Shown piece by piece: positions 6,496 through 53,082 of a DNA stretch of 64,000 nt (the first letter of the stretch is position 1; every line of letters starts with the position of its first letter). The notes below the pieces were generated by a model. That model was not told the origin of the DNA. It made no database searches and worked only from the letters and a program-made list of their open reading frames with translations. A program made the translations under genes and the position numbers. Origin of the DNA: Allacma fusca (lineage: Eukaryota > Arthropoda > Collembola > Symphypleona > Sminthuridae); the NCBI GenBank assembly GCA_947179485.1, contig OX359245.1, forward strand, positions 50,889,067 to 50,953,066. The letters run 5' to 3'.

Positions 6496-6499
6496 TACT

Positions 6500-7148: not shown

Positions 7149-8358
7149 CAGTGGTCGTCATGGGTACAAAAAGTTTGTTCCCGTTCCTGTTCCCACTCAA
7201 TGGGTACTCCCCTTAAGTGTTCCCGTACCCGGACCCGTTCCCGTTATGATGGGAACAGTATTTTAGGTACCCGTTCCCATGAACGTAATAAAAATGTGTA
7301 CCCGGACCCGTTCCTGTTCCCGTACCCAGAAATTAAAAAATTTTTGGACCCGTACCCGTTCCCACAGCTGGTGTTCCCGGTCCCGTTCCCGGGTCCAAGT
7401 CGTATTGTAATTAAATGTGGTAAAAATTATTATCAGGATTTCACGAACCATCAAACCCTTCGTTTGCAGATAAAAAACAGGCAATATGCAGGGCGGCTAA
7501 ACGCTCTCCCAAAGCGAGACGTATCAGTATAATTACTGATTGTTGAATTCTTCTGAGATTATGTACCGAGTAGACCGAATATCTACACTTTAAAATGACA
7601 TACTGGGAAATGATGCAAGAATGAATGAAACATTGATATTGCTCTGCCAATAATAAAATTGAATACTGATGCGGGTTTCAAAATGGAACTTAATATTTAA
7701 GATCAATTGCTGGCCCAAAGATAATTATTCTGCATATAAAATATATCTGAAAAATATATTCCAGCACGGGTTAGTTTCCCTTTGTTAGTTTTATTTTTTT
7801 TGAATATTAACTCGTGCAATCAATTTTTCAAGGGTAAAACGCGGAGCAAAAGTATAAATTAATAATAATTATTTTAATATTTCCTATATTAACTTGTAGA
7901 ACTATTCTAGAAAATACCGCAACTGTATTGAAACAAGAGTTCTAACATTATTATCTTTAAGACAAGGATATGCGCGTAGAAATTGCACAAAAAAAGAACG
8001 GAATGGAATATGCAAATTGAATTGTATACATAAATAAAGTACTATCAAGTCTTCCAAGATCAATTTTGAGTGTTTTTCAAGAAAATGGTAAAAGTACCCA
8101 CTTGATCCCGGGAACAACAGGTATGGGAACGGGATCATGTGTAGACCGTACCCGTTCCCGATGGGAACGGGAACAAATTAAAAATATCGGTTCCTGTTCC
8201 CACTACTGTTCCTGTTCCCAGTGGTCGGGTCCACCTGAACGTGTTCCTGTTCCTGTACCCAAACAGGTTGGGAACAAAATATTTGTTCCCGTACCCGTTC
8301 CTGTACTCGTTCCCGTTCCCATGTTCCCGGGTTTTACCCGTTTCCGTGACGACCACTG
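7149..8358. mobile_element. hAT-type non-autonomous element, GGGAAC-word family, TSD gttggtac
   Basis: The termini are inverted: CAGTGGTCGTCATGGG on the left and CAGTGGTCGTCACGG on the right read inward. An exact 8-bp duplication gttggtac (7141-7148 and 8359-8366) flanks them. Length 1210 bp. The zones next to both ends (7171-7420, 8100-8345) are dense arrays of GTTCCC/GTACCC words. The centre is AT-rich and has no transposase. ORFs through the arrays give Val-Pro or Gly-Thr stutters and are artefacts. Confidence 0.9.
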
Positions 8359-8366
8359 GTTGGTAC

Positions 8367-8933
8367 TACTTGAAGAAAAACTGGTGCTGACAATGAGGAA
8401 TCACGTAACTTCCACCAAGTATAAAACTGCTCGTAACAGTGAGGATTGACAAGAAAACATGGCTTCCGAGGGTAGCTATGTAGGCCAAAAAAAACCGCAA
8501 AGTACATTTCAACCAATAAGATCAATAGAAGTACCCAAGCAAAATGGCAGGGTCGTTTCAATATGTAACAATTAAATTTACACAAATACTAAACAAGGGA
8601 ATCAACATGACCGTAGATGACACAGCCGAAAACTTATTCTGCAGTGGCCGTCCCGAAGCCCAAAACACATTCTGGGGTAACCGTCCCCAAAAAAGTAATT
8701 CGGCGTACTTAACACGTAGTGCCAAGTTAATAGATAATTTGTCGTGTGAACCCACAACTTGTTAATTCTTGCAAAGAGCTACCACGTGTGCCCTCTGTTT
8801 CTTCCATAAATTCTTCCTATATAACCTATTTCTTCCACAGATTAAATTCCTCGTCGAGAACATACTCTATCATCTACCCCATTATTCCATTACATTAAGA
8901 TATCACCCTCCGAGGGTCTGTTTCGTGTTGGTG
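8367..8933. other. non-coding, no gene seen
   Basis: It holds the rest of a broken 87-bp repeat unit and otherwise unremarkable sequence. Short ORFs here lack any recognisable domain. Confidence 0.4.
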
Positions 8934-9070
8934 GTCGTTTCGGACAGTGAGGGTTAGGTTAGTTCAATTGGAAAGGAGCGCTGGCACTGCGATGGCCCCG
9001 AAGGGGCCATTGTGGTGACAATAGCGCGCCTTTCCACTTGAACTAACCTAACCTGAACGTCCGAAACGAC
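8934..9070. repeat. long imperfect palindrome (foldback) with TTAGG motifs
   Basis: The left arm (GTCGTTTCGGAC, then GGTTAGGTTAGTTCAA) pairs with the right arm (TTGAACTAACCTAACC, then GTCCGAAACGAC). The stem continues inward to a core, TGGCCCC-GAA-GGGGCCA. Total span is about 137 bp. It may be a foldback MITE or a structured RNA. TTAGG is the arthropod telomere unit, but only two units occur, so this is not a telomere array. Confidence 0.8.
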
Positions 9071-9179
9071 GGGTTAGGTTTCCAATTCCCCAAATTCTGA
9101 TTCACCCGAAAAGTATTTTGTCCAATTAATGCCATGTTTGTTTCACAAAAACACAAAATATACTTACTTTAAACCTGCC

Positions 9180-9500
9180 TGATTCCTTATTGTCCGCACC
9201 AGTTTCGCAAAAAATACTACCAGTTATGTTCTCGGTGGAGTCAGAATATACTTGGTGGTACTTACTTTATTTCTTATTGTTGATACCAGTTTACCTTTAA
9301 TTGATATCAAGTATGTTCTCGGTCGAGTGAAAATATACCTGGTTTCTTTTACGGGAATCCTCATAGTCAACACCAGTTTCAAAAAAATTAATACCAAGTA
9401 TATTCTCGGTGTAGTGAAAATATACCTGGTTTCTCTTACGTGAATGATCACAGCCAGTACCAATTCCAGAAAAATTAATACCAAGTATATTCCTGGTACT
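9180..9500. repeat. tandem repeat, unit 87 bp, about three to four copies
   Basis: The AATATA anchor recurs at 9245, 9332 and 9419 (87-bp spacing). Each unit shares ACCTGGTTTC, ACCAGTTTC and TACCAAGTATATTC-type blocks with point differences. Related single units lie at 7050-7148/8359-8440 in inverted orientation. Confidence 0.85.
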
Positions 9501-10151
9501 TCTTCCTTTCGCCCAAAACCCCGACCCAAACCAAAGGACCAATCTTTCTGACGTGCCCTTTAACATTGACATTTTGTGGTTCAGTAAATGACTGGTATAA
9601 TCGATTGATACCATGGTATATACCTAATACAAATTCCACAACTTGTTCCAGATATTTTCCTGGTACGTCCCAGTGGAAATTCCATATAATACACCAGAAA
9701 AAATCCCATGTTAAAATTCTATATACCAGATAGGAAAGAATAACCAATTCCTGTCACGAGTACATGAATTCATGGTCAATTAATGTACGCGGCCTGACCT
9801 ACACAAATACTGGATCAGAGCGCAGCACTAAAAGTCATTTTTAATTGTACGATTTGTTTTCAATCGGTGTAGATACATAAACGTACATTACGAAGACGCT
9901 ACGTGCGTCAATTTGTGGACGTTTCCCCACATACCCAACATTTTATTTGGAAACGCCTCCCTTGCTTAAACACCCATCGTAATCATTCTTGTTTTGTAAT
10001 TGTTCGGCACCCTGATCCGGAAAATCGATCAACTTAAACAATGTTGACTCATTTTTGTTGCAGTTTCAGAAAATTGTACGCAAATATTTTTGATTTAAGT
10101 GCTTACTGAGTTTGCACGATTTAGGGAGGAAAGGTGTTTTTCTAAAGTAGG
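9501..10151. other. non-coding repeat-derived sequence
   Basis: 9661-9760 resembles 40573-40660 (shared CGTCCC-GTGGAAATT and ACCAGATA blocks), so it is an interspersed repeat fragment. No gene seen. Confidence 0.45.
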
Positions 10152-10911
10152 TAGGGTATGTCGATTTGAAAATGCCCGGCATTTTGGGCAACTCGCCCAC
10201 CCAAAATGCCAGGGCATTTTGGGCATTTTCATTTCAGGGCGTGGGCGGCATAATAGGGCATATTGGGCTAGGGCATTTTGGGCATTTTCATCGAGGATAA
10301 ATTGGGCATTTTGGGCAGAATCGTGGAATACAACAGAACAATCTATGCAATACAATTTGACAATGGATTTGAAAATTAGATCTATTTGGTTCGAAATTAT
10401 TTTGAAAATTTTATTCTGCATGTCATTATTTTGACGAAGTTACTTCAACCGGTGATGAAATACGTTTGGATACCATAGGTCATATTGAACATTACAATTT
10501 GTGAAACACCTGTACAGTACACAATATACAGTCTATAAATTAAAATATACCAGGAACTATTTTTCCAAACTGCAGACGATGTAAAATGAACTTCATGTCA
10601 GTGAAATTAAATTGATTTGACTGTTTTTGCCATTAAAATATATGCAAAGAAGCGAATATATAACCAGACATTCACATTTGTAACTATCCCTTAGCTGCGC
10701 GTTCATGCATTTGAATGGATATTCTGAATATATGCTAGTAATCAAATTTTGGTGCCGTGAAAATGTCCAACTTGCCCTGCCCAAATGCCCAAAATCAGGG
10801 CATTTTCAAAAGCTGCCCACACGCCCAGTTTTTGGGCATGTGGGCAGGCATTTTGGGCATTTTCAGCTGGGCGGTCAAATACGGCAGGGCATTTTCAATC
10901 GACATACCCTA
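10152..10911. mobile_element. hAT-type MITE, GGGCATTTT-word family, TSD aaagtagg
   Basis: Inverted termini TAGGGTATGTCGATT continue into GAAAATGCCC. They are flanked by the exact 8-bp duplication aaagtagg (10144-10151, 10912-10919). Length 760 bp. Both ends are packed with GGGCATTTT/AAAATGCCC words. The centre is unique and AT-rich. No transposase. Confidence 0.92.
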
Positions 10912-12463: not shown

Positions 12464-13131
12464 TAAGGCTTCCATCCGATCGGATGATCCTCGGATATCC
12501 GAAATTTCGGATCGGATACATACTTATCCGATCCGAACACAATCCGATCGGATCGGATACGTACCCCTTATCCGGTCATCGGATTCGGATCGGATTTGGA
12601 AAAGACTTTATCCGATCGGTTCGGATCACAAATAATAAATATCGGATAATCCGACGGATATCCGAAAATCAAATTTTTAGCGCGTTCGAGCGACCAATAA
12701 GAACGAAGTGTGCAACAACAATTTGTCCAAAGAGTAACTGTGCCGCTTTTTACTTGTTTTCTTCTTAATTCTGTGCTTCACATTTACAGCGTTGTTTGTA
12801 AAGTTTTTCTTCATTTTGTACATATGACGTAATGCATGCAAAAATGATTAATATAGTGATGTAGCAAAAAGCTAATGCATTTTTGCAGTGAAAATTCCTA
12901 ATACTTTTTTTTATCACCCAATGGTATCAATTCGGATAATTTCGGATATCCGCGGATCGGATCGGATACTGCACTTATCCGATCCGAAAATTTCGGATCG
13001 GATACGGATGAATAAAATTTTTATCCGATCCGTAACAGTCGGATCGGATAATAAGAAAATTTATCAGAAAATTTCGGTTCGGATCGGATTCGGATCGGAT
13101 ATTCGATTTATCCGGTCGGATGGAAGCCTTA
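12464..13131. mobile_element. hAT-type MITE, CGGAT-word family, copy 1, TSD gttagaac
   Basis: Inverted termini TAAGGCTTCCATCCGA lie inside the exact 8-bp duplication gttagaac (12456-12463, 13132-13139). Length 668 bp. Arrays of ATCCGATCGGAT words occupy both flanks. A unique centre (about 12670-12900) includes GCGCGTTCGAGCGACC. A second copy lies in reverse orientation at 51733-52382 with a different duplication, so the ends are confirmed twice. Confidence 0.95.
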
Positions 13132-13395
13132 GTTAGAACTATTTACATGGCTTAATATAGATCATAATGAGTGTCGCATATACTTAGTAAACACATTACT
13201 GAAAAACGAATTAGTTTCTTTAAATGAGAATTATTATTAAATGACTTTTTACGACTATTATAATATTATACATGTTAAGATTTAAAATCCCAGCATTTAG
13301 TAATGTACTATAATTGTAAGTCAATAATTGGGATAACAAGTGATTAAATGGAAAATTCATAGTTTTTTGTCAGACGTACAAGAGAGTCTCTAATA

Positions 13396-13686: not shown

Positions 13687-13852
13687 CTTTAATAAACCAT
13701 CACCATCGCAAAGGAAAATTTTGAGGTATTAGTACAGATCTCACTTGTTGTACATTATTACGATTTTAGAATATTAATATTGCAGTGCTCCAAATGGTAA
13801 AATAGATAATGTTGATGACAACGCTGCTTTTTCGTATTATAATTTTTTGATT

Positions 13853-15139: not shown

Positions 15140-15340
15140 GCTTATTGAATAAAGAAAACTAAAATTTTACAGTTCTCCATGCATAAAGCAAAACGTTTGC
15201 TTATGATTAGCCCAGTAGACTTTCGCAGAGTCTATGAATAGTTTCAATTAACATTGTATTCTTAAATCCCATCAAAGATTTTACATATTGAAACTGGGTA
15301 AATTTACACTTACCCGAAATATTGTAACGTTCATTTGGGC
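15140..15340. repeat. local direct duplicate, copy 2
   Basis: Partner of 13853-14045. Confidence 0.8.
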
Positions 15341-15367
15341 TTCCACTCCGATTATAACTTTAGAAAA

Positions 15368-23589: not shown

Positions 23590-23789
23590 GTATTTAAAAA
23601 GTAGTGGTTTCGAAGGAATAGGCGAGCAAAATAGGAATAGAATAGGTTTCTGGTGGAAAATGCTAGAATAGGAATTGACTTGAATAGCCTCGCCATCACA
23701 CGCTTTGAATAGTATTTGAATAGATTAGTCACGTAAACGCTATGTAGTAAATAGAATTGACTAGAATATAAAACTTTTGGGCAGCACTG
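23590..23789. mobile_element. hAT-type element end with GAATAG-word array
   Basis: GAATAG/AATAGAATT words recur about ten times and end at a terminus reading CAGTGCTGCCC on the minus strand, a common hAT-type end also seen at 43478. No opposite terminus, so it is partial. Confidence 0.55.
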
Positions 23790-25292: not shown

Positions 25293-25312
25293 ACTATCAT
25301 ATTAACTTCAAA

Positions 25313-27978: not shown

Positions 27979-28716
27979 TCAATAAGCACGGGGGAAGGTA
28001 ACAACGGGAGCAGGATGCTGGGCGTTGTTATTATCTTCAGGAGTTGACACGAAGACGACCTGCTGGAGGTGTCCGTGTTGACGCGAAGAGGTGTGGCGAT
28101 AACGGTAACAACCGTAAATGATTAAAAGTAATCCAAAAAGAGTAAAGAAAACAATACCAGTTATGGAGAAAATTCGGAATTCCAAATTATAATCACCGGT
28201 GCCGAGGCCAAATTCAAGTTGAGGGGTTGGAATGACGGCAGGGATGACTGGAAGTTTCAAAGACTGCTCTTGTGCAGTCGGAGGGGCTGGTGTAGCTTTG
28301 GTGGACTTAACGACGTCCTCAAAATTGAAAGTTTTAGGGTCGGCAATCAGCATGAGTTGGAGTAGCTTGAAATCTTGTATGGCTTGTTCCATGGGCGACA
28401 AAGTCACGTTAGGGCTGAAATTAACACTTTCACTCGCACTAGTAACATCTTCTTTGAGAAGTTGATGAGGAGGAAGATTTTGATTGAAGGTATTAGAAGG
28501 TGAAGGCACAAAATCAAGCACTTTAGCAATTACGGGAGGAGCAAGCACAAAACCGGCTCGAAGAGCCATCACTTTGAATGCATTAGCACGCTTTTTCTTA
28601 TTTATGTCAGTGAGAAAAGGATTTGGGGCAACTTTAGAATGTAGTGTGTTAATACTTACTGACCTTTGGGGAGGAATCACTAACATTTGGTTGGAAAGAG
28701 CCTGTTGTTTGTTCAT
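27979..28716 (-). CDS. env-like membrane protein ORF of a gypsy-like element, 245 aa
   Basis: An intact frame downstream of integrase, in the place of a third ORF. It contains Pro/Thr-rich stretches and a single strong hydrophobic segment at about residues 182-204 (GIVFFTLFGLLLIIYG), followed by a basic, His/Arg-rich 41-residue tail. This is the layout of a C-terminally anchored type I membrane protein, like the end of an envelope protein of errantivirus-type retroelements. No fusion peptide or cleavage site was recognised, so the env label is an inference from position and topology. The element is truncated and cannot be autonomous. Confidence 0.5.
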   Translation of the reverse strand: MNKQQALSNQMLVIPPQRSVSINTLHSKVAPNPFLTDINKKKRANAFKVMALRAGFVLAPPVIAKVLDFVPSPSNTFNQNLPPHQLLKEDVTSASESVNFSPNVTLSPMEQAIQDFKLLQLMLIADPKTFNFEDVVKSTKATPAPPTAQEQSLKLPVIPAVIPTPQLEFGLGTGDYNLEFRIFSITGIVFFTLFGLLLIIYGCYRYRHTSSRQHGHLQQVVFVSTPEDNNNAQHPAPVVTFPRAY

Positions 28717-28863
28717 TTTGGAGAGACTGAATCCATGTGTGAGGGATGGTAAGCTGTTCCATCCTCCGGGCGGGGGTAGTGGGGCCGCTCCGCCGGAGCA
28801 GATGAGGAAGAAAACACAGAGCGTGGTGAACTTTGTGGAGAGGCCACAAATTCTCCTCGGTTG

Positions 28864-29892
28864 TTAAGCAGGAACTGTGGAGACATATGTGACCGAGTCG
28901 TCGGAGGAGTCCCCGGAAAGTGGGACGACGATTCCTGGTGAAAGGGTGGATTCTTCGAAGAGAGCGGAGGCCGGCTCATCGTGCTCGTTGTTAAAGAAAC
29001 TGTCGTGGACGGAAGTCCCGAACGGAGCACTTCGAAGGAGGGAAGGCGATATGCAGGACCCTCGTTCCGCACGCGAATTGGATCGCTTTGAGCGGGTCGG
29101 ATTAATGATAGGTTTTTGAACTGACACTGGGGGTGAGTCACTTTTGGGGTGGAAAAATCTTGGCACGCCGGAGGTACCGGGTTGGGGTGAATCTCTGGCA
29201 GAACTACTAAAAACTGAGCTCGCGAGTGACTCGGAGCTGACATCTGAATAGGTGGGCGACTGTGGCAATGATATTTCGCATTTGTTAGAGGACTAGAGGT
29301 AGGGAGCAACTTCCGTTGTTTCGGAACTGCCTTTAGATGCTCGAGTGTTGACTGGGTAAAAACTTCTATGTGGATTTGAGGATCCACTAAAATCACTGGA
29401 GTGGACAGAACAAATTCTGCTGGGGAATCCCTCATTTGGTGTAACAATTGTTTCCATGTTATAGCCTAGCGGTACGCTGCCGCACAATAAGCACCTCTTA
29501 ATTGATCTATGAGCAAGGGCACAGCACTGGGTAATACAAGTCCCATGGCGACGTGACGAAAAATTCTGGAGTAGATGGGAACTGAACAATCCGTTGCAAC
29601 AATGACTTGTCCAGTTGCATCCGAAAACTGAAGGGGAAATTTTTTTACAATACACTCGGCCATCGGACAATAAACTGGGATATTGGATGGAGTATGGAGT
29701 GTAACCGAAGCTAACTGCGACCAAGGGTTCTCTCCTAATTTGAAAATTGGCCGGACTCCCAGCGTAGTCATAGGAGTCAGTTGGCCTTGGAGAGTCGGAT
29801 ATTGAGGGGGTGTTGGAGAGTTGGGAGATGACGGATTCATTACGATGCATGTGTAAAATGACACAGTGGGAAGACAAAAGCAAATATGGCAA
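28864..29892 (-). pseudogene. middle part of the gypsy-like third ORF, frameshifted
   Basis: Overlapping minus-strand frames (29466-29918; 28713-29447; 28864-29268) encode parts of one protein split by shifts near 29460 and 29270. They cover a cysteine-containing N-terminal part (YCPMAECIVKKFPLQFSDATG) and a long Ser/Pro/acidic low-complexity part. The region lies between the integrase tail and the membrane-anchored ORF, so it is probably the ectodomain or an accessory protein of the same element. Confidence 0.45.
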
Positions 29893-29895
29893 AAA

Positions 29896-30455
29896 TTATA
29901 CACGTTTGGCTTTATCAATCAATCGCTGAGACTTTCGCACCGGAAGTGGGAGCTTAGATGGAGACGAAACTTTGGATAAAACTGGAACACGAGTCGTACT
30001 TTCAGAAGATGATGATGGAGTGGAAATGTCAGGAGAGTTTGAGGAGTGAAAATGACTGAGCCAGGAGTTAAACTCATCTTGGTCATCACTTGTGTATACA
30101 TACTCAGGGTGTATTATACCGTCACCTAAATCTAAACTTATAAGCTTGAGCTGTGAAAGATGACACCGGACATTAGGTCGCAACCTTTGAGAAGGGAACG
30201 TTAAAACTAGCTCAGCATTATTGTTCTTATCTATGCTTACAATCGTATAGGGGCCTATCCACCTACAGAGTATTTATCGGAAAGACCAATTTTACGCTGT
30301 GGTAAGTAAAATCTAACGTGGGAACCAACTTTATATTCAAAGGGTCTGTATTGCGCACCAAATTTTTCCTTGGCCTGAATTTGAGCTTTGCGAATTAATT
30401 GAGCAATTCGCTGATGCATAATTTTATATTCATAATTACATTCAAGTCCAATGCT
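29896..30455 (-). pseudogene. Ty3/gypsy integrase C-terminus, 5'-truncated
   Basis: The minus strand carries the helix and SH3-like end of integrase: LIRKAQIQAKEKFG, VGSHVRFYLPQRKIGLSDKY, then (after a one-base shift near 30262) WIGPYTIV. A hydrophilic Ser-rich tail ends at 29896. Everything upstream (catalytic core, RT, protease, gag) is missing: the coding stops where a GGGAAC-word array begins at about 30456. Confidence 0.8.
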
Positions 30456-32340: not shown

Positions 32341-32348
32341 CTTAAAAC

Positions 32349-33204
32349 TAGAGCTACTTTTGGGATCGGGTTACACCCGGGAATCGGGTTCGGGATCGGG
32401 AACGGGTTCGAGTTCGGGTGTCTAATTAATGTTCCCAATTACTTTGGGTCCAGGTTCAGCAACATGCTCAGCAGACCCGGGATTTCGGGATCGGGACCGG
32501 GTTTGGGAACGGGTTCAAGCTTGATGCAGGTATTTGTGTTCCCGTCGGGAACCGGGAACATGCTCGTTCCCACACCCGTTACACGCTTCACGTTCCCGGG
32601 AACTACGCAACCATCTAGCGGAGAAAAAAATACAAAGCATGCACGGCTTCCCTCGTTAAAATGTTGAGATACTAATTTTACGTATGCGACTTGAGCCGTT
32701 TAGCAGTCAGTTGGGATCGCATAGTAGTGATTTCCGCCTACTCTAACTTACAAGATGAAATTCATTGCAAAACTCATAGTGGGAATCGTTTAAGCAGTCT
32801 TCCTGCATCTTTTTCGGCAACGCAGACCAGACGTTTAGTTTGATGACAATTTTTAATAGTTCCTAAATCTATTGTATCATGGTACACATGCATAAGTATT
32901 GCTAAATCAATAAAAATGTGAAGAAAAAAATTGATTTACACCAAATGCACTGGTCCCGGGAACGATTCCGGGTTCAAGGGATTCGGGATCGGGATTGGGA
33001 GCAAATTTTATCTGATTTCGGGTTCGGGACCGGGATCGGGTTTGAGATCAACGATTCAAGCATATTTAATATCTGGGTTTTTGTGCACCCGATCCCAGTA
33101 TTTCGGGAACGGGTTCGGGTGTGAGTCCGAAAATATTGATGACCCGATTTTCGGGATCGGGTTCGGGAATGGGATCAAACTTTTCGTTCCCACAAGTAGC
33201 TCTA
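32349..33204. mobile_element. hAT-type MITE, GGGATC-word family, TSD cttaaaac
   Basis: Inverted termini TAGAGCTACTTTTGGGA / TAGAGCTACTTGTGGGA and the exact duplication cttaaaac (32341-32348, 33205-33212). Length 856 bp, with GGGATCGGGTTCGGG arrays on both sides. The third tandem unit has an uninterrupted CTTAAAAC at about 54249 in the same flanking context, an in-window empty site. Confidence 0.95.
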
Positions 33205-33787
33205 CTTAAAACTCGCTCGGTATATAATTACAAACATATATGTATGCATATGTGTGAATAGTTTTTTCCATACAACTGTATCATACATGTCCTTAAAATG
33301 GATTAATAACAATAATTGTTGTAAGTCGACATTTTGTGATTACTACTCGTTACACTTACGTATTTGTCATGCCCTTACTTGAATACAGGCAATCGCCCAC
33401 AAGAACCGCAACCAGAAAATAATTGCAGCTTCGGTTATACGTATTTCTAGTCCCACTTAACCATTTTTTAATCATTAAGATAATTACCACGTGGACTTTC
33501 CTACCACAACTGACCATCAGTTGGGCCATTATTTCTTAAAACGTGCTATTTATTACTTTCCTTGGAATTACCGAATAGTAGCAATATGGAAAATAAGTGT
33601 AGAACTAAATGCCACACAGTCTTATACTCTTTATCGTATTTAGAAGAACGACCAATAAGTCCAAAAGCAAAAAAAAATGATTGGAAAAACTTCAAACAAA
33701 AATCTTGATCCTATTTTTACATTTGCAATTAAACTTTAGAGATTTTACGTCCCAAAGTACCTTTTCACTTTGAAAAACTGTAACCAA

Positions 33788-35180
33788 ATGTTGCATAAGG
33801 AGGAATTGAACCTCAACTTTAAAACGTTGCATCTAATTTCCCTGTTTAATTTTTTACCCATCAAATTTTGTCCCAACACTGGGGTCGCCTCATTTCAAAC
33901 GTCTCGCTTGCGCTTAGGGATCTGGAAAATACAATTTACCCTTTACACCTTAAACTACATCTGGAAACATTGGAGTCTCCTCCGGACCAGATCTGATTTG
34001 AATATATTCAGTATAAATTGTATTTACTGTGCCGTTGCAAATGCTGTTTGGTACGAGCTCTTGTACATTTTTTACCGGCGTGGCCCAGAGAATGCGTATT
34101 TAATCACATTGATAAATGAACGGAGGTTCCAAAAGAGTCAGTACGAAGGTACGTAATTACAAATTGACCGGCTTTCAATCATCGGGGGAAAAATGGACTT
34201 TCATATTAAATTCCAACAAATTTTTTATTATAAGTAAACTTAATCTTCTAGGGCCTAAAAAATCTCTTCTACAAACCACGAGCTCCATTTTTCGCCGCCC
34301 CATCCGAGAAACCGTTATAATAACGTTACCTTTTGCACTATACGGTTTCGGCTTGTCATGGATCGGTCTCTGCTTGTTGGAGCCTCATCAGGGTTTTTGG
34401 ATATTTTCGATGCTTCCAGGGAATTTTCTACATGGACACATTTCCGTTTTCTTGTTCACTTATGAAGCTTGGACAATCCTTTTGATGAGCTCATCTGCTT
34501 ATCTTTGCTCCTACACCGTCCTAAATGTCATACCAAGGCTCACTTTTGATGTTCTGGGATTTATCGCTGTCAAAATTTCGTTAGTTTCTATTTCTACAAA
34601 TTTTTATGTTTTGAGAGCTTCATGCGCTTTAAAGCTTATTTCCGGAATGTTTACACATGAATAATTACTCTTGTGTTGTTTTTACCGATTTTTAAGAGGA
34701 TTGGAGAATCAAATGATCCCTCTGACGGAACTGTCCAGGATTTGCATGGAGCTGAGGATGACCCAAATTGAAATACAGCTTCTTAACTATGTGTACTCGG
34801 GCTTTAACTACGTTATCAAACTCACATTCCTATTTGTTTCCATCGCTGGACTCTTCACGGGGATTAAGCACTTTGGGGACACACCGCTATTTACTCTGCT
34901 GTCCGTAATACTAGCCATGTACATAATAACTTTATTTCTTTTCTTTTTCGGGGACATGTACAAAATACCGGAAATTATGGATTGTTTGAAAGAGCGTCTT
35001 GTGATAGTATCTCGGACTATGAAATGTCCCGAGAGCGTTTATACAAGGAAAATTTTATCGAGTATCCCTCAATGCGGAATTTGTGCAGGAAATTTTTATA
35101 TTCTTGACCGAATGACCAGTGTGGTATTCTTAAATTATGTGCTGTATCAAGTGGCTGGCCTGCTCATAGCTTCTAAATAG
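33788..35180 (+). CDS. GR-like chemoreceptor, tandem copy 1, 390 aa from internal ATG
   Basis: Exons 33788-34148, 34252-34579 and 34697-35180 join in phase to 1173 nt (donors gtacgt and gttagt; acceptors ctag and taag). Exon 1 carries the N-terminal region and first helix (VANAVWYELLYIFYRR). Exon 2 has two or three helices. Exon 3 has two helices, a cytoplasmic loop and the C-terminal GNFYILDRMTS...VLYQVAGLL segment. Copies 2 and 3 have a tiny upstream coding exon (ATGGAAA). Here its donor GT is AT (33593) and the following exon is out of frame, so this copy must start at the internal ATG or is impaired. AATAAA signals follow at about 35212 and 35246. Family: gustatory-receptor-like; ligand unknown. 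Confidence 0.8.
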
Positions 35181-39358: not shown

Positions 39359-39399
39359 CTCTCTTGTAAGAGTATTGTCCTCACTCCTCACAGGGGCAA

Positions 39400-41058: not shown

Positions 41059-41066
41059 ATCAAAAC

Positions 41067-43279
41067 CAGTGCTCGGCACGGGTACGAAAAATCGGTACCC
41101 GTACCCGTATCCGTACCCGAAGTGCGGGTATTTCAATAACTGGTATCTATACCCGTACCCATACCCGAGTATCCGGGTACAAATTTTTCGTACCCGTACC
41201 CGCAATGTAATCTCAATCCATGTACCTGTACCCGTATTGTATCTGTACCCGAAAATACGCGAAAATTGTACCCATACTCGGGTATCTCAGTGTCTTACCC
41301 ATACTCGTACCCGGGTATTTTATTCAGATTGTTTTAATGTAATACATAGTACGTTATATGTAATAATGTATGACACCTGAGTAGGTAATTTTGACTAGCT
41401 AGAGAGGTACTTGACACAGAGCTTCTGTTGGGGACAAAATTCTTGTCCCGTCCCTGTCCCGTCCCGATATTTTTTAAAAACCTTTGTCCCCAGTCCCGTC
41501 CCGACAATCGGGACACGGTGACGAAAACCGTGTCCCCGTCCCGTCCCCAAAAATTTATAAAAACGTTGTCCCCGGTCCCGTCCCGAAAGTCGGGACATGG
41601 GGACAAAAACCTTGTCCCCGTCCCGTCCCCAAAATTTTTAAAAAACGTTGTCCCCGGTCCCGTCCCGAAAGTCGGGACATGGGGACAAAAAGCTTGTCGC
41701 CGTCCCGTCCCCAGAATGTTTAAAAAACATTGTCCCGGTCCCGAAAATTGGGGCATGTGAATAAAATTCATGTACCGTCCCGATAATTACTAAAAACAGT
41801 CATACCGAAAATTGGAACATGAGGAAAATTTCGTACCAAAAATATTTGTACTAAAGACATAAAAAACACATTTATAGAATCGTGGCTCCAAGATTCTTCC
41901 TTAACTTTTTGAGCAACAAGCTTCATTTTCTACAACCTAAAATCGAATGTCTTACATTCGGTGAAATATTGTTCACAGAATAGTTTACTCATGAGCATTA
42001 AAGCTGAATCGTTATCCTTGTTCTGCTATGCTTGCTCGTCCCGTCCCGTTATATACATTACCAAAAGGCATCTCCCGTCCCGAATATAGCGGGGACAATT
42101 TTTTTCGTCCCCGTCCCGTACCAAATATAGCGGGGAACATTTTTTTTGTCCCCGTCCCGTCCCGAGTATAATGGGGTCAATTTTTTTTGTCCCCGTCCCG
42201 TCCCGAATACGACATGGGGACAATTATTTTGTCCCCGGGGACGTCCCGTCCCGGTCCGTCCAGTGTCCCGACGGGACGTCCCTGTCCCCGGCAGAAGCTC
42301 TGACTTGACATTGTATATTTTTATTGAAGAGTAGAAAACTATAAGCGTTTTTGATTAGAAGTAAAATTATCCCCATTTGATTGTTTATGGGCTGATGGGC
42401 GAAGTATTTTATAGCACCCAGTCCATATGTACATGCATTTTTGGCTTGGGACTTGGCTACTCGATTTTTCACTTCTTGATTTATTCGGCCTTTTACATTA
42501 ATTTTCTCATCTCAGTAGCTCTGTGTACATGTAACTCATTAATATCTTGTTACAAATATCCGCCTTTTCCTAATCAACTACCAATTACAAAAAATATCTT
42601 GCCATCCAACTCATCGGAACTCTAATTTTTAAAATGTATTCATTGTGGCTAATTAAGTATCATGTGCATACGTGTCAATCAGACTATTTATGAAATTAGT
42701 GACAAAATACTACATTATGAAGACGTTTTGTATAAAATTTCGTTGAATCCTATCTGTATTCTCCACTTCTATTTTGATATTATTCCTCGTCTGTTTATTA
42801 ATTATTCTTCCTAAAACATGTTTCCATAAAAATATACATTATAGGTATAAATATATGTTTTAGCAACACAGTCTGAAATACAGTTACTGCATGTTGTAAG
42901 GTTAAAAGGGTATTAACAATAAGCTATATGCATTCAGAATTACTAAAAATACCGACAGAATTTTCCAACGGAAGTTCCATTATTTTCATTAAATTCATCA
43001 AAATGTCTCAAATCTCAACATATCCAAATACTCGGGTACAATGGTCGCGGGTACGGGTAAATGACACTATTATACCCGTACCCGGTGGGTATATACCCAT
43101 TTTGAAATCCTTGTACCCGTACACATACCCGTATCCGTACCCGAGATTTTGAGCCGACTAAAGTGTACCCGGGTAGTACCCGGAATTGTTCGGGTACACA
43201 AAATCCGTACCCGGGTAGTACCCATACCCGTACCCATACCCGTTTACCCGAGTATTACCCATACCCGTGCCGAGCACTG
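41067..43279. mobile_element. hAT-type element, GGGTAC-word family, TSD atcaaaac
   Basis: Perfect inverted termini CAGTGCTCGGCACGGGTA and the exact duplication atcaaaac (41059-41066, 43280-43287). Total 2213 bp, including a nested 886-bp element. GTACCCGTACCCGTATCC-type arrays lie at both ends (41090-41320, 43030-43270). No transposase. Confidence 0.96.
41417..42302. mobile_element. hAT-type MITE, GGGGAC-word family, nested, TSD acttgaca
   Basis: Inverted termini CAGAGCTTCTGYYGGGGACA and the exact duplication acttgaca (41409-41416, 42303-42310), inside the GGGTAC-family element, so it is younger. 886 bp. The flanks are arrays of GTCCCCGTCCCGTCCCG. The centre is AT-rich and non-coding. Confidence 0.96.
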
Positions 43280-43287
43280 ATCAAAAC

Positions 43288-43478
43288 GAAGGAATTCACT
43301 GTGACTAGGGGAATTGACTAGACTTGACTAGGGAACCAACTGCAGAATCAAGACTAGGACTACACTTAATTATCGCTATTGCAACTTAAACATTCAGCTG
43401 ACTAGACTTGACTAGTTGCGACTCTAAACTTTAAAGCCTAGACTTGACTTGACTAGGAAGGACTGGCGGGCAGCACTG
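43288..43478. mobile_element. hAT-type element end with GACTTGACTAG-word array
   Basis: GACTTGACTAG words recur and end at a terminus reading CAGTGCTGCCC on the minus strand. The left partner is absent or lost; the 41067-43279 element may have inserted into it. Confidence 0.5.
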
Positions 43479-43786: not shown

Positions 43787-45444
43787 ATGGAAAGTAAGTG
43801 TAGAACTAAATGCCTCGCAGTCTGAAGTTCTTTACCGTATTTTGAAGAATGTCCCAATATTTCCGCTAAAGGTCATAAAAAAGACATAAGTTGATTTTTA
43901 GAACTGGTTTTAAAAACTTCAAACAAAAAACTTTATTTCAAAAGACTCCTATTTTTACTTACTCCTACTTTCCAATTTTAATTAAACTGTAGAGGTTTTA
44001 CTTCCCAAAGTACCTTTGAAAAACTGTAACCAAATGTTGCATAAGGAGGAATTGAGCCTCAACTTTAAAACGTTGCATCTAATTTCCCTATTGAATTTTG
44101 TACCCATCAAATTTTGTCCCAACACTGGGATCGCCTCATTTCAAACGTCTCGCTTGCGCTTAGGGATCTGGAAAATACAATTTACCCTTTACACCTTAAA
44201 CTACATCTGGAAATATTGGAGTCTCCTCCGGACCAGATCTGATTTGAATATATTCAGTATAAATTGTATTTACTGTGCCGTTGCAAATGCTGTTTGGTAC
44301 GAGCTCTTGTACATTTTTTACCGGCGTGGCCCAGAGAGTGCGTATTTAGTCACATTGATAAACGAACGGAGGTTCCAAAAGAGCCGGTACGAAGGTACGT
44401 AATTAGAAATTGACCGGCTTTCAATCACCATCGTGATGGTTGATCCAGGAAAAAAATTGAACTTTCATATTAAATTCCAATGAATTTTTTATTACAAGTA
44501 AACTTAATCTTCTAGGACCTAAAAAATCTCTTCTACAAACCACGATCTCCATTTTTCGCCGCCCCATCCGAGAAACCGTTATAATAACGTTACCTTTTGC
44601 AATATACGGTTTCGGCTTGTCATGGATCGGTCTCTGCTTTTTGAAGCCTTGTCTGGGCTTTTGGATATTTTCGATACTTCCAGGGAATTTTCAACATGGA
44701 CTCATTTCCGATTTCGTGTTTTTTTATGAAGGTTGGACACTCCTAATGATTTGCTCATCTGGTTATCTTTGCTCCTACACCACTCTAAATGTCCTACCCA
44801 GGATAACTGTCGATGTTCTGGGATTAATCGCTGTCAAAATTTCGTTAGTTTCTATTTCTACAAATTTTTATGTTTTGAGAGCTTCATGCGCTTTAAAGCT
44901 TATTTCCGGAATGTTTACACATGAATAATTACTCTTGTGTTGTTTTTACCGATTTTTAAGAGGATTGGAGAATCAAATGATCCCTCTGACGGAACTGTCC
45001 AGGATTTGCATGGAGCTGAGGATGACCCAAATTGAAATACAGCTTCTTAACTATGTGTACTCGGGCTTTAACTACGTTATCAAACTCACATTCCTATTTG
45101 TTTCCATTGCTGGACTCTTCACGGGGATTAAGCACTTTGGGGATAACCCGCTATTTACTCTGCTGTCCGCAATACTAGCCATGTACATAATAACTTTATT
45201 TCTTTTCTTTTTCGGGGACATGTACAAAATACCGGAAATTATGGATTGTTTGAAAGAACGACTTGGGATAGTATCTCGGACTATGAAATGTCCCGGGGGC
45301 GTTTATACAAGGAAAATTGTGTCGAGTATCCCGCAATGCGGAATTCATGCAGGGAGTTTTTATATTCTTGACCGAATGACCAGTTTGGTGTTCTTGAATT
45401 ATGTGTTGTATCAAGTGGCTGGCCTGCTCATAGCAACTAAATAG
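43787..45444 (+). CDS. GR-like chemoreceptor, tandem copy 2, 400 aa
   Basis: Exons 43787-43793 (ATGGAAA, donor gtaagt), 44011-44394, 44516-44843 and 44961-45444 total 1203 nt in phase. The N-terminus is MEIPLKNCNQMLHKEEL. Without the tiny first exon, the ATG at 44034 gives 390 aa. Layout and splice sites match copies 1 and 3. Compared with copy 1, exon 3 differs at about 10 of 161 residues, but the middle part of exon 2 differs at 21 of 70, clustered in predicted helices and loops. The C-terminus has GSFYILDRMTS and LYQVAGLL. AATAAA near 45512. Probably a membrane chemoreceptor of sensory neurons. Confidence 0.85.
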
Positions 45445-46667: not shown

Positions 46668-47023
46668 TTTATTTCCCATCAGGACAGGTCTTAATAATAT
46701 TCATATTCTTACTGCTTAGAAGTTGTAAAATTTTATTAAAATATATTTGCTACCGTAAAAGTCAGTTATAAAGGATCCGCTTATAACGGGTACATCGCTA
46801 TCAGGGGTGCATTTTCCTGGTCTCACCAAAAGTATTTTTAAGCATTGAACTCAAGTTAGTTTCCACAAAATATTGAATATTGAATTGAAAATTGAAAAAA
46901 AGTTAATTTTGTTGGAAAGTCAAAAATAAAAAGTTTAAACAGGATTTAACATTGGGGTTTTAACTTTACGCGAAAATTCTATACCAATTCCAGCCCATAT
47001 CAGGGAGTAACTCGTACGGATTA
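46668..47023. other. non-coding spacer of tandem unit 2
   Basis: The end of this stretch (46970-47020) matches 37680-37735. No gene. Confidence 0.5.
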
Positions 47024-48855
47024 CACCTCTAAACGCATAAAAGCTAAGCGTATAACAGCTAAACGTATAAGCTCAATACGCGTAATCAGCTAAACATATA
47101 ATCGTCTATACGTATAAGGTATCTTAACGCATAATCGTTTAAACGTCTAAGGTATCTAAACGTATAATCATCTATACGTATAGGGTATCTAAACGCATAA
47201 GGTAGCAAAATGTATAATAATGTACACATGTAAATATTGACATCGTTTGAATAAGGCCGGTATTTTAATTCAGGGATCAAAACAATATTTAGCGTTATAT
47301 ACATTCCCTTGAAGCAGCATCATCGTTAAATAGATCAAATTGTATATTGCTTCTTAAACCCACGTCTACATGCAATTTCAATAAAAGGATATATAATCAT
47401 AATAGTCCACGTACAGGCAATGTGTCAAAAAATCTCAGTCAGTCCATTATGTATTTCGTATGCAGTAAGGCCAGAAGAGTAAGGCCTGAGCATACGCGTC
47501 TTCATGGACTCAATGTCGACAATTTTATTAATTCTCGAACTCACCATTTGCAATAATTTTTTTACATTCAGTGTGCTAGTAATTTCATAAATAATTACGC
47601 AAAAAACTTGTTGTAGCACACTTTTTCTAAAATTCTACATAATGTAAAAACGACTGGTCAAATAATAGAATATTTCCAGATTTTCCGAAAATGATCGCAA
47701 CTTTATCACGTTGCCAAACATTTCGAATCCCATAACCTTAATTTTGGACAAAATTTTTCCCTTACCGCATTTCTTTTATTTTGGCTACGGGTAGAGATTT
47801 TTGTCTTTTTTGTTCCATATTTTTGCTGGCGTCTCTACATGCCATTTCAAGGATCGTCTAATATATGTGCAAACTGTCATTGAAATTTTTTAGAACCAAG
47901 CGCCAAAATTATTTTTTTCAAACTGTTTTAGGATAATAACAAACTTAATCCTGAATTCCCTTTGCAATATGTTTTTGACCCATTTTTTGCAAATATAAAG
48001 CTCTGCAAAACACCTATTTTAATTGTAAGCTACAAGAAATGTATTTATGAGGATCTTATTTATTTATCATCCTGCTTCAATGAGGTCACCGGAGCCAAAA
48101 ATGTAACGCATGGTTTAATTTTTTGATATTCAATTTTACTTACTAAACTTTACAACATTTCAGCGGAAATCCCACAAGATTTCCGGGAAACATAATTATG
48201 TTAATTTTGAGTTTCTGAAAAATGCATATTTGTACCTTTCTTGTGACTAAAATTACCCAAACGCTGACGTCGTAGTTCAATTTTAGAAAAACTTGAAGAG
48301 ATCGGTCCTAGAAAATCAAATATATTAATAAGCCACCCCCTGAAATATACTCAGGCAAATATAAGTAACTGGCGTAAATACTGATTTTTACGGGACAACG
48401 ACGTCTCCTGAAAAACAGTGGGGTTCATTACATGAACTATTTGCGTGGGTTTTACCTGTACACATTTCCTGTACGTAGACTATTTTCGTTTTATTGAAAT
48501 TGCATGTAGACGCGGATTGAATATGCAATAGACAATTTGGTCTCTTTAACAACTATGCTGTTGCAAGGGCATGTATTAAATGTGCATGTAAATGCTTTTA
48601 AATACCTTATACGTTTGGACGATTATACGTTTATAAAGCCTATACGTTTAGACGATTATACGTTTATAAAGCCTATACGTTTAGACGATTATATGTTTAG
48701 ATACCTTATACTTATAGATGATTATATGCGTTTAGATACCTTATACTTATAGATGATTATGCGTTTAGATACCTTATACGTATAGAAGATTATACGTATA
48801 ACTCTATGCGTTTACCTGTTATACGTCTAGCCATTTATGTGTTTAGCTATGATAC
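47024..48855. mobile_element. possible large word-array element (TAAACGTATAA words)
   Basis: 47030-47210 and 48590-48850 are arrays of TAAACGYATAA / TTATACGTTTA words in opposite orientations around about 1.4 kb of non-coding sequence. In unit 1 the equivalent interval is only about 270 bp, so an insertion is likely. Exact termini and target duplication were not found. Confidence 0.5.
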
Positions 48856-48959
48856 CGTTAAATGAAGGGTCAAGTTTTGATTTGAGAATTGATTTCAGGG
48901 AAAATATCAATTTTTTCTTAATTCGACGTGATTAGCTTGAGCTTCCAGATCAATGACAC

Positions 48960-50222
48960 AAGCAAGTCAAGTTCAATCAAGTAAACGCTTCTTTAAAATC
49001 TATCTTTTGCTTCAGCCATAAATAGCGAGATAGGACCAGTTGTTCAGTATTTCAGTGTGTTTGGAAGGGCTCTGTCATTTTAAACTGTTTCATCCTGATT
49101 CGAACCCCAGAGAATCGTGTTAAAATACAGTAAAACCTGTATATAATGGTTTTCCTAGGGACGCCGAAATTTGACCACTATAGACAGGGACCACTGTATA
49201 AGTATATAGTGGTCAAAAGTCACTATATAAACATACATATACAGGCATACGAGCAGGAATCCAGCAGTTTGAATTGCATATGTTATTGACAACCAGCAAT
49301 TTTACACTTTTTTAAAAATAATCACTAATTTACTTCTAATTGAGACTTCGAATTTTCACCTTGCCAAGGGAATCTTGAAGAATACTGCAATGATCTTCAA
49401 AGCACCTTGCCTTTTAGGCATTTTCCATAGAGAAATTGGGTAAAAATATTTGTCGACCTATTTATTCGACGAAGTTTCGTTTCGAATTACCTCAGGATGA
49501 TTAAATCATCTGAGATCTTTTAAAGCTAATAATAATTTTTTAAAATGATTAAAAGTAACCACTAATTAATTGAAATACTTCAAAGGACTAATAATATAGC
49601 CAATAAACCATCGTTTGATTTAGTACAAATACATGCAATATTAAACGGCTGGAGATAAAAACGCCCCAAAATGCCTTTAATTGCACTAAACTCAAACAGC
49701 TGTGTCATTGGTTCGGGTTTGCGCGAGTTGTATCCCTTCGTTCTGACTGGTTGACCACTATATACAGGTGCTTTAAGCTGTATTTTGAACTGAAGGGGCA
49801 TGCTCATTAGACCACTATGAACAGGTTACCACTATATAGAAAACCATTATATAGAGGGAATTCCCTATGATAAAGGATAGGAGATGGGACCGGGAAGCCA
49901 AATTTGACCACTATTGACAGGAAACCACTATATGAACGGTCATTATATACAGGTTTTACTGTATTGGCCTTCCTTCATGGAGGCACAGTGGGAGTGTTGT
50001 ACAACCGTGTGTCCGGAATTATTTAAGAAGAATCTTCACGCCGAACAATGTGCATACGACGCCATATATATTACTAAAATACCTACCTGCAATTGAGGTC
50101 CTTGCAGCCTATTAGAATTATGTAATTGTGATTCGTTATTCCACTTCGACGAAAGCATTATTATTACTTCTTTGCGAACAATCCAAGTAACGCTGTTAAT
50201 CTCTTGCTTTTATATTTTTTAA
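48960..50222 (+). pseudogene. second inverted relic of receptor exon 3, split by a MITE
   Basis: 49010-49125 and 49964-50215 together match exon 3 of the 15.4-18.0 kb receptor (TTTGCTTCAGCCATAAATA, GGCCTTCCTTCATG, GTGTACAACCGTGTGTCCGG, AGGTCCTTGCAGCC). A stop follows the LQ-equivalent point, plus frameshifts. A TA-flanked element sits between the halves. Confidence 0.85.
49128..49961. mobile_element. pogo/Tigger-like MITE, TSD TA
   Basis: Inverted termini CAGTAAAACCTGTATATAAT, flanked by TA on both sides. 834 bp. GACCACTATATACAG words repeat near the ends. The insertion point in receptor-derived sequence (GTTAAAATA / TTGGCC) is confirmed by the uninterrupted intact gene (TTAAAATATCGGCC on the minus strand near 15640). 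Confidence 0.92.
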
Positions 50223-50564
50223 AGTTGTGGTCAGCCGGCAAGCTCAAATGAACTTTAAAATATTTCGGATGAATGTAAAATGTCCAAGTTTGAATATGTA
50301 AAATTTTTCTGGGTTTTGACATTAAAATTTTAATTAAATCTACACATTGACCCTGTCTATCTGCTTCTAATGGGATTATCATAGGCAAACGTTTGCTTTG
50401 TACATGGAGAACTGTAATTTTCCCAGCTTTCTTTATTCATTAATCAAAAACTGTAATTTTGGTAAACATCAACATTATCTGTTTTAACATTTTGGGTACT
50501 TCAATATTACACTGTTCTAAAATGGGGACGTAAGGGCAGTATTAAACCCCAAAATTTCCATGAC

Positions 50565-51400
50565 CATCATGTCATTTGTGATAGTGGTGGTCAAAGTGAT
50601 ATGTTGGTGGTCAAAGCAGTGCGTCGCATGGGTACGGGTAGTACCTGAGTATTTGGGTACAGGTACAGGTCCAGGTCCGAAATCGGTACTCTGTTTAAGT
50701 ACCCAAACTGAATGGGTACTTTATCATTTTTGGGTACTAGATATATGTACCCAAATTTTGGGTACAAAACCAGGTGTTGGGTACAGGCACAAACTTGGAA
50801 GTTTTTGGGTTATACCTGACAGGAACAGGTACAAGCTTCCAATATACCCTGTAGAACCTGAAAAATTAATACTCGAAAATGTGGGAACTTTTACAAACAG
50901 AAATCCATCTTACGAGGCATCTAGTGTAGTATGTGGCTCTCTCTCCGACCTACAGGTCTATTTTGATATTCAGCGTGTTTTCAGGAGTGCATCGTAATTT
51001 TTGAAAAAGCATACGGTTATGCAATAGGGATGGTTGGCTTAGCACAACGTGCCAGCAATAGGTACGTGTAATTACAAATTCCACTTGTGATTCAGTAAAA
51101 CTGGCATTAAATGGTATTGTGGTCCAGGTTCAAATGTAAAAATAATTAATAGTAACATGAGTAAGTGCTAAAGTTAAATTAACTCGCTTCTAGAAAGTTT
51201 TTCAAGTCCTATGAAGTGTCCGGTACCTCCACGAATTTTCACATCTGCTACATCCTTGGTGTAAGTTCGTTCGGCGAGGCATGCAGTCTGGCACAGCAAC
51301 ATAAACGAGAATAAGAAAACTGCAAAAAATTACAAATATAATAGCACAGTAAACGTACTGTCATTGTTATTAGAGACTCTCTTGTAAGAGTATTGTCTCC
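50565..51400 (-). pseudogene. third copy of the histidine-rich peptide gene, broken
   Basis: The exon equivalent at about 51210-51325 has a one-base deletion in the signal region. The His-tail exon is reduced to 50573-50616. In between, about 500 bp of unrelated sequence begins with CAGTGCGTCGCATGGG (50617) and GGGTAC words, probably one end of another hAT-type element. The flanks match 39.0-39.4 kb. Confidence 0.75.
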
Positions 51401-51732
51401 ACAGGGGCAAAACCATTTGGACACATTCTTGCATTGCCCCAGTATCAGGGATGAAATATCGGAAAAATAAAAATTCCGACTCCAATTACAATACCTGCTT
51501 AAATTTAATTTCGATTTAGATTCCGATTCCGATGTATCCAAATAATTGATTTTGAATTCGGATACCAATCAATTCAAATACTTTTAAATAATTCCGATTC
51601 CAATTCCGATTCTATGCATGTAACCTACAATTTATTATTATTTTTGTAATTTTTAAGTCATTACATTACTTCATTTAAACTGTTTGCTTACTCCTTCGGT
51701 AGTCGACCTGGGTTATAGTTTTAAATCAAACG

Positions 51733-52382
51733 TAAGGCTTCCATCCGACCGGATAAATCTAATATGCGATCCGAATCCGATCCGAACCGAAATTTTCGGA
51801 TAAATTTTCTTATTATCCGATCCGACCGTTACGGATAGGATAAAAATTTTATTCATCCGTATCCGATCCGAAATTTTCGGATCGGATAAGTGCTGCTATC
51901 CGATCCGATCCGCGGATATCCGAAATTATCCGAATTGATACCATTGGATGATAATGGAAAGAAGTATTAGGATTTTTCACTAAAAAAAGTATTAGCTTTT
52001 TACTACATCAAAATATTAATCATTTTTGCATACATTACAAACTGAAGAAAAATATTACAAACACTGCTGTAAACTTGAAGCACGGAATTAATGAGAAAAC
52101 ACGTAAAAAGCGGCACAGTTACTCGTTGGACAAATTGCTATTGCACACTTCGTTCTTATTGGTCGCTCGAACGCGCTAAAAATTTTATTTTCGGAAATCC
52201 GTCGGATTATCCGATATTTATTATTTGTGATCCGAACCGATCGGATAAAGTCGTTTCCAAATCCGATGACCGGATAAGGGGTAAGTGTCCGATCCGATCG
52301 GATTGTGTTCGGATCGGATAAACAGTGTATCCGATCCGAAATTTCGGATATCCGCGGAAAATCCGATCGGATGGAAGCCTTA
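51733..52382. mobile_element. hAT-type MITE, CGGAT-word family, copy 2, nested, TSD atcaaacg
   Basis: Termini TAAGGCTTCCATCCGA, exact duplication atcaaacg (51725-51732, 52383-52390), 650 bp. The whole is the reverse complement of the 12464-13131 copy (including the CGAACGCGC centre) with moderate divergence. Confidence 0.96.
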
Positions 52383-52824
52383 ATCAAACGTAATGCAGAG
52401 AAAAGTCTTCACACAGTAGCCTAAGTTACTGGAATTCTCAAGATTACAAATGTTACTTGCTGGAGAATTGCAGATTTTGAATCATTCCATCACTTGAACA
52501 AATTAATTCAGATGTCCCTTGTGCCGTCCATAGTTGTTCCACAGAATACGTTGAAAGTTGGAACATGTCTTTAATTTTTTTTGTGTTTCTAAATTTCTAT
52601 TGCAGTCGTAGTAATCATAAACAAATGATTCTTTCTTTCCATTTTTATTACTACGATAAAGAACTATTTACGCAAAAAAACGTGTAGAAGTGTAAAATTT
52701 AACGTACTATATAAAAGGTCCTAAAGGTCTCTTTATGGCTTCAGAATGTAATATCAGAAATGGAATCGGAATTCATTGAAATATCATTAAATTCTAATAC
52801 CAATACCGATACTTACTTTCCAAT

Positions 52825-53030
52825 TCCGATTAGAATTCCAATACCTAATTTTACAGTATTTTTAATTCCGATTAGAATTCCAATACCTAATTTTACAGTG
52901 TTTTTAATTCCGATTAGAATTCCAATACCTAATTTTACAGTATTTTTAATTCCGATTCCAATTCTAATACTCGAATTTTACAGTATTTTTAATTCCGATT
53001 CCAATTCTAATACTCGAATTTTTCGGATTC
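52825..53030. repeat. 42-bp tandem repeat inside the ATTCCG-word element
   Basis: About five units built on ATTCCAATACC, TAATTTTACAGT and TTTTTAATTCCG. The 42-nt length makes a 14-residue repeating ORF, which is an artefact. Confidence 0.85.
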
Positions 53031-53082
53031 TTTTTCGATTCCGATTCCAATTCCAATTCCAATTTTCAACCCTGCCCAGTAT

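Follow-up and report, generated by a model that had tools for sequence, protein, structure and literature searches.

Family-specific subterminal word arrays, putative transposase binding sites, in hAT-type non-autonomous elements of the springtail Allacma fusca

Introduction

What is the role of short repeated words that crowd the ends of otherwise similar transposons, and why does the word differ from one family to the next? This question is raised by a 64-kb window (here, the whole stretch of 64,000 nucleotides analysed) on contig C1 of the 392.7-Mb Allacma fusca assembly, the genome that was searched in this work. A preliminary description made from the sequence of the window had named eight elements in seven families, with inverted termini of the form YARNG and 8-bp target duplications, considered them hAT-type miniature inverted-repeat transposable elements (MITEs) and proposed that each family's word is read by a different transposase. 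We conclude that they are probably non-autonomous hAT elements, mostly MITEs, in which the word arrays are putative multiple binding sites of the transposase of the corresponding lineage. The observations underlying this are the structure of the elements, the family-specificity of their words, the arrays on hAT elements that carry a transposase gene, the association of the word CGGAT with one transposase clade and, in family C, insertions and deletions (indels) of whole words. Published work is cited by PMC number.

Results

Window elements and their words

The window was scanned for perfect (8/8) target duplications around inverted ends of 10 bp starting with YA, with at most two mismatches. 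Twelve matches were obtained, eight of which are exactly the elements named in the preliminary description; of the other four, those at 15270 and 22644 are weak (two mismatches each) and two lie inside the copy at 51733. Ten Markov-shuffled windows subjected to the same scan gave four matches in total. The inverted ends match at 10/10 positions in seven of the eight elements and at 9/10 in that at 51446, and all eight, representing seven families, have the perfect duplication that the scan required. The terminal inverted repeats (TIRs) of families A to G start with CAGTG, TAGGG, TAAGG, TAGAG, CAGTG, CAGAG and CAGGG respectively, all seven fitting YARNG. The elements, given without strand, are:

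7149..8358: element A, MITE; TIR CAGTGGTCGTCA (12/12); word GGGAAC (also GGGTAC); 8/8 duplication GTTGGTAC
10152..10911: element B, MITE; TIR TAGGGTATGTCGATT (15/15); word GGGCA(TTTT); 8/8 duplication AAAGTAGG
12464..13131: element C copy 1, MITE; TIR TAAGGCTTCCATCCGA; word CGGAT; 8/8 duplication GTTAGAAC
32349..33204: element D, MITE; TIR TAGAGCTACTT; words GGGAAC, CGGGA, CGGGTT and GGGATC; 8/8 duplication CTTAAAAC
41067..43279: element E, interrupted by F; TIR CAGTGCTCGGCACGGGTA; word CGGGTA; 8/8 duplication ATCAAAAC
41417..42302: element F, nested in E; TIR CAGAGCTTCTG; word (C)GGGAC; 8/8 duplication ACTTGACA
51446..53074: element G, interrupted by C copy 2; TIR CAGGG(A/T)TGAAA (9/10); word CGGAAT; 8/8 duplication CCCAGTAT
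51733..52382: element C copy 2, nested in G; word CGGAT; 8/8 duplication ATCAAACG

The terminus of element G, CAGGGATGAAA, we take to be of Ac type. The small reading frames inside the window elements fall short of the length of a hAT transposase gene such as that of the element L123 described below.

Counted over the whole element, the words lie far above an order-1 Markov expectation: GGGAAC occurs 22 times in A (0.97 expected), GGGCA 18 times in B (2.73), CGGAT 42 and 37 times in the C copies at 12464 and 51733 (4.74 and 4.55), CGGGTA 33 times in E (1.23), GGGAC 51 times in F (3.84), and GGAAT and TCGGAA 24 and 13 times in G (3.59 and 0.88). The words originally named are thus real arrays, of which the phase is arbitrary, and in D the best 6-mer is GGGAAC (12 copies), ahead of the GGGATC (nine) first proposed. 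Read head to tail, the words are CGGAT, CGGAAT, CGGGTA, (C)GGGAC, CGGG(A/T)(A/T)C and CGGGAA together with GGGCATTTT, six of the seven containing CGG. As a statistical over-representation this CGG core was rejected, a dinucleotide-keeping control giving z > 3 in only 2/15 shorter and 1/11 transposase-bearing elements; these figures are partly low since the word itself sets those dinucleotides, and the core is used here as a description only.

Other parts of the initial picture needed correction. In most families the word had been said to start inside or right behind the terminus; the first exact 5-mer begins only after 10–48 bases in all 50 ends measured. The AT-rich centre does not hold for all elements, GC content being 0.314 in the centre of G vs 0.285 in its arms, and 0.423 in D and 0.407 in F, above the window mean of 0.37. 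E holds the nested F and G the nested second copy of C, so that two of the centres are partly later insertions.

Word arrays across 264 kb

A structure-only scan was carried out on 264 kb, made up of the window and 20 regions of 10 kb chosen round high-ranking matches to the hAT dimerisation domain (20 of the 150 listed); loci outside the window are designated by L and a number. It gave 26 matches, of which one inside a C copy was dropped, leaving 25 elements that include second copies of three families, whilst three Markov controls gave one match each. Arrays were scored as the best 6-mer of both ends and compared with 2000 random piece pairs of equal spacing taken outside the elements, a null that itself holds some undetected arrays and one satellite. 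The score exceeded the 95% null level in 24/25 elements (16/17 outside the window) and the 99% level in 15/25; elements built in this way thus almost all possess a word array in these 264 kb. When up to 250 bp of flanking sequence was taken on either side, the family word turned up there only 0, 1 or 2 times per element, and hence the arrays stop at the termini.

Within the 25 elements the words follow one another in tandem at intervals of roughly half a turn or one turn of the helix, interspersed with opposite-strand copies: among 341 same-strand spacings of up to 40 bp, 148 are of 5 or 6 bp and 45 of 11 or 12 bp. Outside the window further words were found (CGGAAC, CGAGTA, CCGGTT, AGGAAC, CTGGTC, TGCGAA, ACTTGA, ACATGA and others), most of them different, and the word sets collected in this genome amount to 11 transposase–word pairs, to which the shorter elements add another 14 words. 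Arrays of ACTTGA recur at L078, L081, L082 and L086 and define a further family, with TIR CAGTGCTGCG in L086:6276-7556. At L096, long satellite-like arrays of CTCAAA (1-2101 and 6351-8151) lie on both sides of a hAT element.

Arrays change by whole words in family C

Exact termini of family C number 348 genome-wide (reversed-pattern control, 1) and those of family E 1057 (control, 0). For C, a sample of 22 copies was taken, comprising the two in the window and 20 on contig C1 with both exact termini; they are 561–689 bp long, hold 22–49 exact CGGAT each and have duplications matching at 8/8 positions in 17/22 and 7/8 in 5/22. For E, 38 adjacent pairs of termini occur among the 100 places listed, 33 of them 0.8–2.0 kb apart; two pairs, at 8673932-8677238 and 8923381-8926677 of contig C1, are about 3.3 kb apart, the size of L123, and are candidates for coding copies. 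Both families are, like MITEs, short and present in many copies with conserved ends. The C terminus was also searched in viral and prokaryotic collections, from which records close to the genome of the window may be missing and where 5 and 63 matches, on our own estimate of the order of chance, included none with an array (at most six CGGAT within 250 bp).

The manner in which these arrays vary bears on whether they are simply microsatellite-like by-products, slippage or gap repair multiplying any sequence at a hAT end with no role in recognition. Distinct indels of 3–19 bp in the C copies fit whole-word sums of 5 and 6 (5a+6b, a rule fixed after the lengths were seen) in 11/11 cases in the arms and 3/14 in the centre (p 1e-4), and so the arrays change by whole words. 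Such behaviour would be expected of by-products, as would the tandem blocks of 82 and 41 bp in the arms of F and of 42 bp in the right arm of G. On the other hand, a single word is found at both ends of an element, mostly in both orientations, interrupted by spacers and stopping at the termini, and one word is common to a transposase clade (see below). Moreover, the majority base is better conserved at the word positions of C (identity 0.982) than in the arm spacers (0.968; p 0.006) or the centre (0.941). Taken together, we regard an origin of the arrays purely as by-products as unlikely.

The word CGGAT accompanies one transposase clade

If each word belongs to a transposase lineage, then elements encoding the transposase should carry arrays as well. 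Ends were sought at 26 hAT loci, the first 20 and six further ones (at L079 and L120 they were located by looser criteria only), and both ends round the transposase gene were located at 13 of them (10/20 and 3/6 respectively). Twelve of these 13 elements have a clear array, the exception being L078. Their words are CCTAT (weak), CTCTAC, CCTTC (two families), AAGGC, CCCTC, GAACTC, CGTTAC, ATAACG, CAACA and CGGATA, and most of the transposase-bearing elements carry words other than those of the window families. Two more of the six further loci, L121 and L122, derive from the ATAACG family by internal deletion; they are 1.3 kb long and retain ends and arrays.

The word of family C was found on a transposase-bearing element, L123, which is 3319 bp long with a TIR matching at 14/14 positions, an 8/8 duplication and CGGATA arrays at both ends. 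Its zf-BED match is divided between two frames and, in its second half, falls below the Pfam cut-off; the hAT dimerisation domain is above the cut-off and a hAT RNase-H-like match below it. All four PDB matches, to the last 70 residues, are to Hermes or ‘transposase’ chains, and among the named proteins found the closest, at 38% identity, is one annotated in Folsomia candida as ‘putative AC transposase’. L123 is classed here as an Ac-like hAT. The L123 and C termini agree at 17/22 bases, the highest among the elements compared, part of the match being the word itself. For C, the expectation of an autonomous hAT with the same ends is borne out only in part, by a related coding element that has the same word and ends that are similar but not identical.

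Three further loci, L124–L126, were picked as members of the L123 clade by profile range and frame length, with CGGAT expected beforehand. The L124 protein is 56% identical to that of L123, and its locus has 23 CGGAT in the 3′ end, one in the 3.3 kb before and none after; L125 and L126 have 15 CGGAT each and the terminus TAAGGTTCTGCACGGAT (701-base 3′ flanks). CGGAT arrays are thus present at 4/4 loci examined of the clade and at 0/20 other hAT loci (at most four CGGAT per 400 bp). Across 11 families the C-terminal identity of the transposases was compared with the similarity of words hand-picked from the top-ranked ones, giving rho 0.36 and a Mantel p of 0.0275, which is suggestive of a weak rather than a strong tendency for similar transposases to have similar words. 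The fast co-evolution of arrays and transposases suggested in the preliminary description is a conjecture at most, the transposases of L083 and L084, 64% identical over the C-terminal 190 residues, going with the same word. The clade association and the correlation both agree with the proposal of one word per transposase lineage.

They also bear on the possibility that the words bind host transcription or silencing factors in place of a transposase. Domesticated hAT-derived CGG-binding proteins do exist (PMC8097297), yet the word changes by element family and follows the transposase clade, and the arrays are located at hAT ends, making host proteins a very unlikely explanation.

Two candidates for autonomous copies of window families were rejected. 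A 7.1-kb C copy at L097 contains a THAP/P transposase that belongs to a separate element in its left arm, and two further stretches also interrupt the copy. At L087, a CGGGTA array belongs to an E-like MITE (3122-4870 by eye, 7/8 duplication) lying within a transposase gene.

Superfamily assignment

The 8-bp duplication is not unique to hAT, the P superfamily making it too, and some window families might belong to such another superfamily (e.g. P/THAP), the hAT label being wrong there. A P element is indeed present at L097:286-4089, with a THAP domain, a 29-bp TIR, CAAGGCTATAG ends and an 8-bp duplication; moreover nTnnnnAn, the target preferred by the hAT element Hermes (PMC10368747), is not matched by the duplications of B, F and G or by that of the second copy of C. 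Against this, the L097 element, which holds the only P transposase seen, has its own ends and is merely inserted in a C MITE. C has its word and much of its terminus in common with the hAT L123, all seven TIR types are YARNG, and the duplications of A, D, E and the first C copy fit nTnnnnAn, as do those of 12/29 elements overall (some of the same family; 2.9 expected, p 1e-5). Elements of the same genome that bear a hAT transposase share the design of the window elements. We consider a wrong label for some families quite unlikely, and given the shared design, the nTnnnnAn bias and the link between C and L123, the hAT origin first proposed is retained throughout, with the greatest confidence in the case of C and by design in that of the other families.

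Observations that weigh against the interpretation

A number of results count against arrays as lineage-specific binding sites, or reduce what can be drawn from the coding elements. The array of L078 is weak (z 5.8), and 11/26 hAT loci gave no ends and 2/26 are deletion derivatives, so that half of them are silent on coding elements. Among the transposase-bearing elements read, none has ends identical to those of a window family, and the one long C copy examined proved to be a MITE disrupted by nested insertions. When the comparison is confined to the 12 outermost bases, C agrees with L123 at 8/12 but with the L077 MITE, which has another word, at 9/12. The L124 terminus, TAAAGGTCTTCACGGATCGGAT (TAAAGG), is one base longer than the TAAGG type of C and L123; the locus yielded no left end, and its frame contains a stop. 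L125 and L126 are near-identical, reducing the clade evidence to at most three families, and their membership comes from a profile match and from last codons that by eye resemble the end of L123. Fifteen extra C copies have no nTnnnnAn bias (2/15, 1.5 expected). Two further predictions were rejected: the number of words is not significantly higher in MITEs than in elements with a transposase gene (p 0.08), and the Hermes-like arrangement in which the first two words are inverted is not enriched (20/52 ends vs 191/570 adjacent pairs).

Discussion

In the mechanism that we propose, the word would be bound by the BED-type DNA-binding domain at the N terminus of the mobilising transposase, each lineage reading its own word. 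Many such sites, 5–6 or 11–12 bp apart and usually in both orientations, could recruit a multimeric transposase cooperatively to the ends, the array supplying avidity as has been proposed for Ac and Hermes. Slippage would make arrays grow or shrink by whole words and so supply variation, and MITEs may keep the array because it would decide which transposase moves them, selection presumably favouring many sites. A tentative extension, doubtful though conceivable, is a recognition code in which an old core would have been preserved across dozens of hAT lineages (CGG among those like Ac, AGG in a second group), these lineages differing mainly in the two to three bases beside the core and in phase. 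If such a code is real, each transposase would ignore the elements of the others, MITEs would capture one by means of high-avidity word arrays, and the sharing of a word would predict who mobilises whom.

The preliminary description had regarded these elements as an undescribed unified class, which does not hold: sets of subterminal repeats near the ends are a feature of most hAT transposons (PMC10368747), and BED/Hermes domains of hAT type vary widely in the sites they recognise, which mostly contain CGG and match the subterminal regions of the hATs tested (PMC8097297). In maize, Ac/Ds elements have 8-bp duplications, 11-bp TIRs and AAACGG hexamers that are bound cooperatively (PMC3260210), the Ac transposase binding its own repeats in this way (PMC10368747), and abundant non-autonomous copies keep ends and hexamers, Ds-del arising from Ac by internal deletion (PMC3260210). 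The springtail families resemble this system in their 8-bp duplications, short TIRs, subterminal words and non-autonomous copies, the word of G even containing CGG, and the derivatives L121 and L122 correspond to the maize route from Ac to Ds-del (PMC3260210); they differ in that the words form dense head-to-tail arrays and that many families with different words share one genome. In Hermes, the BED domain binds the subterminal repeats within a multimer, the motif AAG(T/C) occurring 17 and 14 times in the ends of about 450 bp (PMC10368747). Short subterminal repeats, a BED domain and the nTnnnnAn target are common to Hermes and the springtail elements, whereas the inverted first word pair is no rule in the latter. 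The hAT-19/CGGBP work likewise concerns BED and Hermes-type domains with divergent, mostly CGG-containing specificities, the springtail CGG core being descriptive only, but it examined proteins on arrays, whilst the present data give the cis side, family by family, in one genome. Tol2 also has a repetitive subterminal motif, mutation of which lowers excision (as cited in PMC10368747), in one family and with one motif.

The arrays are therefore a strong form of a feature already known for hAT elements (Ac, Hermes, Tol2). A literature search that covered few subscription papers found no survey of family-by-family words in hAT MITEs and, so far as it shows, the many word–transposase pairs in one genome and the growth of tandem arrays by whole words are new. 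The papers cited describe subterminal repeats for single families (Ac, Hermes, Tol2); with 11 pairs in one genome the co-evolution of transposase and site, cross-mobilisation and a BED recognition code become open to direct tests. The case of CGGAT suggests that, for a MITE with no known autonomous partner, the word can indicate which transposase lineage it belongs to.

Further features of the window

Several incomplete elements with related arrays accompany those described above:

47028..48855, no strand: large element with paired TAAACG/TATACG word arrays (inverted)
50617..50880, plus strand: one-ended relative of A/E with terminus CAGTGCGTCGCATGGGTAC and GGTAC-type words; right end not found
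43300..43478, minus strand: truncated element, word GACTAG, right terminus GGGCAGCACTG; left end searched, not found
23600..23789, minus strand: truncated element, word GAATAG, right terminus GGGCAGCACTG; left end searched, not found
6920..7045, minus strand: truncated copy (by eye) of a TAGTGGTCGG-type family, word AACTGA, with a fuller copy at L097:4471-5838

A search for the ends of the element at 47028-48855 gave no clear target duplication or TIR, and it is possibly another transposon type with similar word arrays. Besides these elements, the window contains retroelement remains on the minus strand at 441-2207, with a reverse transcriptase match, and at 27979-30273, with long open reading frames (ORFs), one of which was tested and has no Pfam match. 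Three related ORFs of 182–198 aa stand in a row at 58109-62736, the one tested having no Pfam match, and three similar membrane-protein-like gene copies (33740-35180, 43986-45444 and 54807-56287), chemoreceptor-like by eye, form a local cluster.

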